43,436 nucleotides of DNA, taken from positions 1 through 43,436 of IMG/VR virus record IMGVR_UViG_3300025616_000002; one strand, written 5' to 3'. The notes under the pieces were generated by a model that worked only from the letters and a program-made list of their open reading frames with translations, made no database searches and was not told where the DNA came from. Below, piece by piece: positions 11,978 through 21,626 of this stretch. Each line of letters starts with the position of its first letter. Position 1 is the first letter of the stretch. This stretch comes from a virus. The position numbers and the translations under genes were made by a program.

Positions 11978-12110
11978 TAGTAACTAGGTATGTAATAGTG
12001 TTCTAAAAAAGTTTAGTAAATTTAATGGGAAGCTATAGGATATACACCCTACAAGGTACTTAAAAAGGGTTTACCCCCCCCTTTAAGTTATTGATTTATA
12101 TAGGTTATTT

Positions 12111-13429: not shown

Positions 13430-14131
13430 ATGTATATTATAAATAAAGCAGGATTACCCGCATTAAAACTAAGTAACCTTATCAGTGTGGATAGTAACCT
13501 TGTAAATATCGGTGAGACGATACTAAAGATTACATTCAAACCTGTTAAGGTAACAGGCAAGCCCGATATTCCTGCAAAGATAAGCAAGGGCGCTATAATG
13601 TTAGCTGTTACGGATAATGAGCTTGATAGCTTGTTAAGTGAGCCTGTAACTCGCACATGGCTGAAAAACGAATTATTAAAGATTCAAAAAGGATTAATCA
13701 CTAATGAGCTAGATAATAAAAGTTATAAGGAAGCAAATGGTATTAGTTTGGAGCTGTTTAATCAGGGCGCGTTATTAGATTGGATTAAAAAATCTGTTAG
13801 TAGCGAAAGAGCTAATGGAACTAGATTGAGCGGTAAGAGCATAACAGAGTTTTTTAACCAAGTAATAGAGCCTGTGCTATCTTGGAAGTTTAGCGAAATG
13901 TTAAATGTTAGTTTAGAGCATAAGAAGGTAGTTAATCAAGTAGGTAAGTATCGCGATAACATGACATCGCTTGCAGGTAATACGTTGCTATCCGATGACA
14001 TGCTTGGAATGTTATTAAAGTCTCTAGACATGGTAGCTGAGAGTAATAATCCTATGCTTGGGAAGTTATTAGAACGTATTAATTCAATGCAGGAAGTGGG
14101 TAATGATGACGACATGTTAAGTCTGGATTGA
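13430..14131 (+). CDS. Early protein of unknown function (233 aa)
   Basis: A 233-residue protein with a beta-leaning N-terminus (residues 1-60: LNLISVDSN, ILKITFKPVKVTGKPDI) and a helical remainder (65-225) with charged surfaces, ending in the acidic NDDDMLSLD. TATAGGTAAGATT precedes the ATG. It is the last gene before a strong terminator (14166-14191) and the candidate origin. Its position suggests an early host-interaction or replication-control protein, but no motif supports a specific role. Confidence 0.78.
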   Translation: MYIINKAGLPALKLSNLISVDSNLVNIGETILKITFKPVKVTGKPDIPAKISKGAIMLAVTDNELDSLLSEPVTRTWLKNELLKIQKGLITNELDNKSYKEANGISLELFNQGALLDWIKKSVSSERANGTRLSGKSITEFFNQVIEPVLSWKFSEMLNVSLEHKKVVNQVGKYRDNMTSLAGNTLLSDDMLGMLLKSLDMVAESNNPMLGKLLERINSMQEVGNDDDMLSLD

Positions 14132-14165: not shown

Positions 14166-14191
14166 AAACCGGTTTAATTGCCGGTTTTTTT
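14166..14191 (+). terminator. Rho-independent terminator of the first early unit
   Basis: AAACCGG (14166-14172) pairs with CCGGTTT (14181-14187) around TTTAATTG and runs into a T-tract. It closes the 12.4-14.1 kb unit and isolates the repeat-rich region to its right. Confidence 0.85.
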
Positions 14192-14740
14192 ATGCCTGTT
14201 TGGTAGGTATATACCTATATAGGTAGGTATCTTGTATCATGTAGGTATTGTAAGTTATATACACACACGTGATATGGCAGACTATGACAGACTATGTCAG
14301 GTTATGACACACTATGACAGACAGACACACTATGACACATCACACGCACACCCGCCTATATCACACCCGTTTTATACAACATTACTGTGTTACTAACTAC
14401 GGGTGTATGCAGTAGTTAGGTAGTATCTATCTATATATAGTAGGTAGTAGGTATATATATATAATTTTTATTCTTTTTGAGTAGGGGTAACAAGAAGGGC
14501 TAAGATACCTTGTAAGTACTGACTTCCTCCGATACCTTGTATGTACTGGGTAGTGGGTAGTAGCTGGGTAGTAGTAGGTTACTAGGTAGTAGTAAGGTAC
14601 AGGAATAATACCTATTGCACACATGATGGTGGTAGGGTATCATGGGATGTGTCTGACTATGGCAGACATAGTATGACAGAGTATGACATAGTTATACACA
14701 TACAACTAACAAGCAACAACTAAACAAAGAAGGTAATACG
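14192..14740. other. Repeat-rich non-coding region, candidate replication origin
   Basis: About 550 bases without a credible gene. At 14271-14340, TATGACA-like units occur at near-10-bp steps (TGGCAG, TGACAG, TGTCAG, TGACAC, TGACAG, TGACAC). A second cluster at 14651-14690 has TATGGCAG, TATGACAG and TATGACAT. Between them are AT-rich runs of alternating TA (14430-14465), a T-rich patch and an 18-bp repeat (14504-14521, 14531-14548). Further left lie TATATACC and TATATAGG palindromes (14205-14230). Phased iterons around an AT-rich unwinding element are typical of origins. No experimental or family evidence supports it here. Confidence 0.4.
14504..14548. repeat. 18-bp imperfect direct repeat
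   Basis: GATACCTTGTAAGTACTG (14504-14521) recurs as GATACCTTGTATGTACTG (14531-14548), one mismatch, 27 bases apart. It lies in the AT-rich core between the two TATGACA clusters. Confidence 0.7.
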
Positions 14741-15037
14741 ATGAGCATACGACCGTACATAACAGATTGTGAACAAGAGTTACTGGTAAGCATACTTAGT
14801 AATCAAGAGTACCACGGTAACAGAACAGCACTTAACTTACTAGAGAAACTGATAGTAAGAACAAGTGATAACAGACAGGCTAGTAGGTCAGTAACTAACA
14901 CACTAGATGCACTAGGCATAGCAGGTGATGTATTTGTAGTACCTGCTGCGCCTAAGCAAGATAAGCCGGAAGTGATAACTAAGGCTAACTTCTACAGTAT
15001 GGATGATAGTGCTATTAATGCTATGTTTGATATATAG
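14741..15037 (+). CDS. Small protein of unknown function next to the candidate origin
   Basis: A 98-residue protein with a helical N-terminal 65 residues (CEQELLVSILSNQEYHGNRT, then ALNLLEKLIV) and a short tail with Lys/Pro and acidic residues. GAAGGTAATACG precedes the ATG. It directly follows the repeat-rich region, as origin-binding or control proteins sometimes do, but I see no clear helix-turn-helix. No family recognised. Confidence 0.72.
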   Translation: MSIRPYITDCEQELLVSILSNQEYHGNRTALNLLEKLIVRTSDNRQASRSVTNTLDALGIAGDVFVVPAAPKQDKPEVITKANFYSMDDSAINAMFDI

Positions 15038-15196: not shown

Positions 15197-15225
15197 TTGA
15201 CTTATACGGGAATTTATGTTATTAT
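15197..15225 (+). promoter_or_regulatory. Strong sigma70 promoter
   Basis: TTGACT (15197-15202), 17-base spacer, TATTAT (15220-15225), with an A-rich upstream flank ending AAAAATAACGC. CTCTAGGAGAG sits at the expected start site. It would drive the 15.4-19.8 kb genes. Confidence 0.8.
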
Positions 15226-20780: not shown

Positions 20781-21626
20781 ATGGCCGAGTTTAAGAGTTT
20801 ATTTGGTGGTAATAAGGATAAGAATGGTAAGGGTGGTAATAATACCAGTACTAACCAAACTACTACGTTACCTCCAAGCAATAAGACAGTAGCACAAGCT
20901 ACTATTCCAAACGATACTACTGTATCAAACACAACCACTACCGAGACTATTATGGATACTAACACAGCAACACCAATTGACAACTATGAAACTCTAGCTG
21001 CTGAATCAGCTAAGTTACGTGACCTTGCTACTTCTTCTGCTGGCTATGCTAAGCAAACTGTTAAGTTTAACTTTCGTAAAAACCCAGAACTGGGTACTAA
21101 AAGACCTTCTATTGAAGTTGAGATTCCAGTACTAACACTGACTGGTCTTATTAACATAATTGAAATTGGTGGCAAGCAACTGGACTTAGTACTAAGTACT
21201 CTTAGTGATGTTATAATTGCTCAAGCACGTGGGCAAGTAGATGACAACGAAGCATTTACTCCTGAGTTACTTGATACTGCTGCTATTACTTGGGAAGCTA
21301 TCTCTGCTATTCCTAAAGCTGAACGTAAGGGCGGTGGTATTGCTAAGGATGTATGGGAAGCCTTTGGTAAGGACTATCTTACTGTTATGCCAGCTCTTAA
21401 TGGTCGTACTCTGGAACAAACAGCTAACGCTGTTAAGATACTGCTTGGTAAGTTTCAGTCTTGCAAAACTAACAAGCCAGTACTTAAGTACTTACTTGAC
21501 CAGTTGTCAGTTTGGTTTGCTAATACTACTAATGCTGAAGACTTCGCAGACTGCTTTGAAGCACTGACTTCTAAAGCTGAAGCGTTGTTGTCTGCTACTG
21601 ACGAAGACTTGTTGAAAAACTTGTAA
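20781..21626 (+). CDS. Abundant DNA-metabolism-region protein of unknown function (281 aa)
   Basis: A 281-residue protein with a low-complexity N-terminus (residues 9-65, mostly Asn, Thr, Gly, Lys) and a folded domain from about 70. The latter has a strand-rich part (TVKFNFRKNPELGTKRPSIE, then IPVLTLTGLINI), a helical part (YLTVMPALNGRT onward) and an acidic end. I recall similar sequences as conserved hypothetical proteins in other podoviruses but know no activity. It has its own strong promoter and its own terminator, so it is expressed alone and probably at high level. A ssDNA-binding or regulatory role would fit; no motif proves it. Confidence 0.8.
   Translation: MAEFKSLFGGNKDKNGKGGNNTSTNQTTTLPPSNKTVAQATIPNDTTVSNTTTTETIMDTNTATPIDNYETLAAESAKLRDLATSSAGYAKQTVKFNFRKNPELGTKRPSIEVEIPVLTLTGLINIIEIGGKQLDLVLSTLSDVIIAQARGQVDDNEAFTPELLDTAAITWEAISAIPKAERKGGGIAKDVWEAFGKDYLTVMPALNGRTLEQTANAVKILLGKFQSCKTNKPVLKYLLDQLSVWFANTTNAEDFADCFEALTSKAEALLSATDEDLLKNL

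Follow-up and report, generated by a model that had tools for sequence, protein, structure and literature searches.

In origins of the lambda type, iterons for the O protein lie beside an AT-rich region, and iteron origins are likewise found in the plasmids F, P1, R6K and RK2. The satellite phage P4 carries octamer iterons in ori and crr, and its alpha protein, a primase-helicase, is the initiator. Repeated sites that overlap an early promoter are known from the lambdoid OL/OR operators and from the stoperators of cluster A mycobacteriophages. The locus described here resembles each of these systems in part. Like lambda-type origins and iteron plasmids, it stands at the head of replication genes and joins short repeats to a promoter and an AT-rich stretch; however, its two arrays flank the core and are usually mirrored, its repeats lie outside the neighbouring gene, its unit is typically 8 bp long rather than about 18–22 bp, and it has neither a recognisable Rep or O protein nor a conserved DnaA box. 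Octamer-sized iterons in two separate stretches recall P4, but here both stretches fall within 0.5 kb around one core, and the candidate binding proteins, P230 and P281, show no primase-helicase domains. As in OL/OR and the stoperators, repeated sites lie over an early promoter and specificity varies among relatives, whereas the sites are much shorter, tandem, restricted to a single locus and arranged around a conserved melting core.

The locus was noticed in a phage record of IMG/VR, IMGVR_UViG_3300025616_000002, the whole 43,436 bp of which are referred to as the window. Its termini are identical over 127 bp. From 11.8 kb the terminase and structural genes are read leftward, and from about 13 kb the early and replication genes are read rightward; the rightward set includes, in PHROGs names, a Dda-like helicase, an exonuclease, a Sak4-like annealing protein, a PolA-type polymerase and a primase, and the repeat locus immediately precedes the genes for the helicase, exonuclease, polymerase and primase. 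The closest named phages, which are Aeromonas phage P5, Polaromonas phage Tiera, EBPR podovirus 3 and the group of PaP2, 119X and PaMx41 (these three classified as Fredfastierviridae), are remote, with 30–36% identity in DNA polymerase and 33–35% in the large terminase, and no nucleotide-level relative was found among named phages. A 44-kb relative, NVSS01000025.1 (L109, L111), is filed as a contig of a MAG labelled Coxiella sp., which may reflect mis-binning of a phage and not point to the host.

The gap that holds the locus follows the gene of P230, a 233-aa early protein (13430..14131, plus strand) represented by profile A1. An intrinsic terminator with an 8-pair stem and a T run (14166..14191, plus strand) separates the P230 transcript from the left array. 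This array (14273..14337, plus strand), delimited by repeat scan and motif count, consists of six TATGNCA units starting at 14273, 14283, 14293, 14303 and 14313, in 10-bp steps, and at 14331, after a step of 18 bp; Tandem Repeats Finder assigned it a period of 10 and 6.7 copies over 14273-14337. The right array (14648..14691, plus strand), located about 385 bp away at the expected transcription start, comprises one degenerate unit and three TATGNCA units, at 14658, 14672 (+14) and 14682 (+10), and the same program placed a second array at 14665-14692. TATGACA singly is not over-represented in the window (7 observed vs 8.9 expected); the pair TATGNCA-N3-TATGNCA occurs five times, always at the locus, against an expectation of 0.01. 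Unit starts and pair count thus bear out the two clusters of TATGACA-like repeats described in an earlier note on this DNA. The helical phasing proposed there is right as to the 10.0-bp step, but the 18-bp break makes it approximate. The left and right arrays are 73% complementary over 33 nt (14291-14323 / 14660-14692), and the TGNCA centre of the unit is near-palindromic; the orientation of the arrays in the window is mainly direct (direct similarity 52 vs a mock mean of 16), which is atypical among the loci. The earlier note mentions neither this complementarity nor the promoter-like sequence described below.

The TA runs, the 18-bp repeat and the terminator on the left, all listed by the earlier note, are present, and its 550 bases indeed hold no explanatory gene, the only open reading frame of at least 60 aa in the gap being a 65-aa frame on the minus strand. 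The AT-rich core with its GGGG-TA end (14451..14493, plus strand; G run 14484-14487), delimited by the alignment of 44 loci, is among the weakest duplexes of the window. Between core and promoter lies the 18-bp direct repeat (family D5; 14504..14548, plus strand, copies at 14504 and 14531), which was not seen as a conserved part of the relatives' loci. The promoter-like TTGCAC-N17-TATCAT (14615..14643, plus strand) stands where most relatives have TTGACA-N17 and stops just short of the right array; it is a weak match, and weak on its own, as its score is equalled in 6 of 22 background stretches of the window. DnaA boxes belong to many iteron-type origins, though not to all. One, TTATACACA, is found at 14692, and boxes of this kind are present in only 3 of the 44 loci, so it was rejected as a part of the locus. 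The first gene downstream of the promoter, taken from the list of open reading frames, encodes 98 aa (14741..15037, plus strand); its product matched no PHROG, and viral contigs gave no relative except one identical. Between this gene and the next one, of 208 aa, there is a good sigma-70 match with an extended -10, TTGACT-N17-TATTAT (15197-15225).

Relatives were collected as DNA polymerase matches from IMG/VR; the helicase was placed in 20 genomes, and the regions upstream of it were fetched. The first set has 24 members, counting the window, G022, G037, G063 and PaP2, and does not include G004 and G021, whose contigs end within the gap. An independent set of 20 loci was fetched with profile A2 of P230, since profile A1 was too divergent for a scan of the collection. 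Throughout the first set of 24 and at the 20 independently fetched loci, the gap beside an early gene of about 215–265 aa has the same layout, namely a genome-specific array, the AT-rich core and, in most, a TTGACA-N17 promoter with a second array over its start region. This structure accompanies the P230 gene in every genome whose contig spans the gap. The arrays persist in G015 despite a reversed P230 gene, and in G009 despite its absence; in the latter (L072, 8276-8908) the locus is followed by two adjoining small proteins made of cysteine-rich NCxxC-type repeats.

The array sequences differ wholly between genomes while the core stays constant, and the second array is usually the reverse complement of the first. 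Examples of such pairs are AATCAT/ATGATT (G020), GCCTGAA/TTCAGGC (G003), AGACTGTC/ACAGTCT (G013), AACTTC/GAAGTT (G001) and TGGCA/TGCCA (G011 and G019). In Tiera, which was left out of the locus counts, GTTCGTTAT occurs at 43627 and ATAACGAAC at 43991 and 44063, and nowhere else; clusters of the array motif are likewise confined to the locus in the window and in PaP2. Mock anchors set at other positions of each sequence served as control. Against these, the flanks showed inverted similarity in the top 5% at 18 of 24 first-set and 13 of 20 independent loci, where about 5% would be expected (G010 and G020 scored negative since their AT-rich words are masked by the test); the corresponding counts for direct similarity were 3/24 and 2/20. 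In the window the arrays are clusters of tandem repeats beyond chance, and clear ones are present in most relatives. The unit is 8 bp long in most of these and 10 bp in the window, so that the spacing expected to be conserved is specific to the window, and helical phasing was discarded as a general rule. The earlier note knew of no described podovirus element like this one. The layout recurs at 44 loci and is not unique to the window phage, and literature searches, the scope of which did not extend to PaMx41 transcription mapping, returned no description of such a locus.

At all 44 loci the core ends in AATTTTTAAGT-GGGG-TA or in its C-run form. When aligned on the G/C run, 27 loci follow the consensus AAtTTTTaagt-GGGG-TA and 17 the C-run form, with core positions chosen in part by eye. 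A strict core pattern, used as control, was present at 9 of 24 loci, and in the other 307 kb it occurred only once. In 18/24 no other 100 bp of the fetched segment are less stable than the core, and in 24/24 the core falls among the weakest 1% of 60-bp windows; this test is not independent of the choice of an AT-rich core. An AT-rich, easily melted element thus stands beside the arrays.

A TTGAC element with promoter spacing occurs at the right array of 18 of the 24 first-set loci, and in these the array covers the spacer, the -10 or the start region of the predicted promoter; the left array has no matching promoter of its own. Sites overlapping a promoter in this way are what a phage operator or immunity region would present, with a weak match in the window itself, and an operator role of the right array is visible from sequence at least as directly as an origin role.

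We favor, with a probability of about 0.5, the reading that the locus is an iteron-type replication origin fused with an early promoter/operator. It builds on the two arrays and their usual mirror orientation, the core of low duplex stability, the overlap with the promoter and the place before the replication genes. A phage-encoded DNA-binding protein, which could be P230, P281 as its probable paralogue, or some other, would bind both arrays and help to open the core between them, where the replication machinery would be loaded. The same binding might also regulate transcription of the replication operon, since the right array lies over the region where rightward early transcription is expected to start. 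The two roles are compatible and both may hold: the flanking arrays and core fit an origin, and the overlap fits an operator. Several findings speak against the origin part. The sign change of GC skew anticipated at the locus did not appear, as there is no kb-scale change at 14.3-14.7 kb of the window and the change lies near 11 kb, at the switch of gene orientation; in the relatives, only a local 200-bp shift was seen at the locus, in 18/24. Kb-scale skew was accordingly dropped as support for an origin. The DnaA box is not conserved, no protein resembling a known initiator is encoded beside the locus, G009 has arrays without a detectable P230, and the arrays of the window are mainly direct. 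Of the protein-directed element first suggested, the repeats around an AT-rich core have held up at 44 loci, while the skew and 10-bp spacing have not.

It is possible, though we hold it only tentatively, that the locus is purely a transcription switch, in which a phage repressor, be it P230, P281 or a different protein, would use the arrays as operators, blocking the early promoter from the right array and looping to the left one, with replication starting elsewhere; rapid change of the repeat sequence would then mark immunity groups. That a TTGAC-type promoter is overlapped by the right array in 18/24 is in line with this, and repeats that diverge fast while their orientation and position persist are as expected for immunity specificity. 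Clones infected with phage Shea resist superinfection without known lysogeny genes (PMC13348215), which also agrees. Such a switch leaves unexplained the conserved AT-rich/G-run core midway between the arrays as well as the left array without a matching promoter, and no repressor domain was recognised in P230, in P281 or among the other phage proteins scanned.

The proposed fused origin/operator raises the question of which protein reads the arrays. P230 is the neighbour of the locus, profile A1 matching 20 of 21 genomes, and convincing matches to known families or folds were sought by sequence, profile and structure search and not found: Pfam, PHROG and PDB gave none, and a Foldseek search of PDB and BFVD with the model of a P230 family member returned nothing below 1e-3. 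In that AlphaFold2 model (pLDDT 86.5; 70.2 for the window's own P230), short strands are predicted to precede a helical body. The alternative candidate, P281, is a 281-aa protein (20781..21626, plus strand) present in 21/21 genomes. In G008 and G016 the P281 counterparts are hit by the P230 profile (E about 1e-4), and hhalign of P230 against P281 gave E 3.5e-4 with a probability of only 37%, so that P281 is probably a distant paralogue. The arrays of G009, which lacks a detectable P230, favor P281 or another protein as the binder there. When repeat similarity was set against the similarity of P230, TerS, the 399-aa family, the helicase and TerL in a partial Mantel test, no protein was singled out. 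At the C-terminus, P230 of most genomes and the window's P281 have an acidic stretch and then a DDLLxL-like leucine motif (14100-14131 and 21590-21626), which suggests a common partner.

The cultured relatives bring the locus within reach of work on Pseudomonas phages. In PaP2 (Jamesmcgillvirus, Fredfastierviridae), the gap p01-gp58, between a gene of about 240 aa and the replication operon, spans the record ends and contains inverted CAAGGT/ACCTTG arrays and the core GAATTTTTTAACCCCCTA. PaP2 and its relatives thus share position and layout with the window, whereas the PaP2 repeat sequence is different and p01, at the P230 position, has no detectable homology to P230, for which reason it was rejected as a P230 homologue. 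In the PaP2-group records viewed, the gap is unannotated except for a terminator in PaMx41. Shea is 98.57% identical to PaP2 and persists as an unintegrated episome (PMC13348215), and therefore needs an origin of its own; this locus could be that origin or the immunity element.

An improbable explanation is a packaging site, in which the arrays would bind the small terminase and the core would be a cos or pac region. It draws on the fact that the first positions of the PaP2 (L096; ends 43783/1), 119X and PaMx41 records agree to within 1 bp, at a point about 27 bp to the right of the core, which may be a copied convention. Against it, repeat similarity shows no link with that of TerS (partial r about 0 or negative), the core is crossed without interruption by many independent contigs and by the FBPa48 record, the arrays overlap a promoter, and another conserved element, beside terS, is a likelier packaging site. 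Very improbable is control at the RNA level, by a left-array transcript pairing with the 5' end of the early mRNA, where the right array is predicted to lie as largely the reverse complement of the left one: a terminator between P230 and the left array, found in the window and by eye in several relatives, should keep the left array from being transcribed rightward, and Rfam gave no credible match to a known RNA element. Equally remote is a parS-like partition site for episomal maintenance. Tandem iterons and an episomal relative (PMC13348215) speak for it, but the partition-like locus suggested by the earlier note found no further backing. No ParA/ParB-like protein was found in the scanned subset of genome proteins, and the core and promoter overlap would be unexplained.

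The locus provides a precise and testable candidate origin/operator for a large, mostly uncultivated podovirus group, and it is accessible in three cultured phages, PaP2, PaMx41 and Shea. Should the arrays serve as immunity operators too, they would help to explain the episomal pseudolysogens of Shea without recognised lysogeny genes. Fast-changing arrays against a fixed core, beside a protein family without known relatives, make the DNA-recognition code worth solving. More speculatively, and in our judgment doubtful, a lineage-specific repeat code read by P230/P281 proteins of a new fold could serve both replication and superinfection immunity, allowing podoviruses without an integrase or classical repressor to persist as episomes.

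A second conserved non-coding element was observed just outside terS (window 12000-12050). It consists of AAAAAAGTTTAG and, about 20 bp on, TATAGGATA or TTAGGATA, occurs once in the window and is found at the same place in 19 of the 24 genomes, which makes it a candidate packaging site or late promoter.
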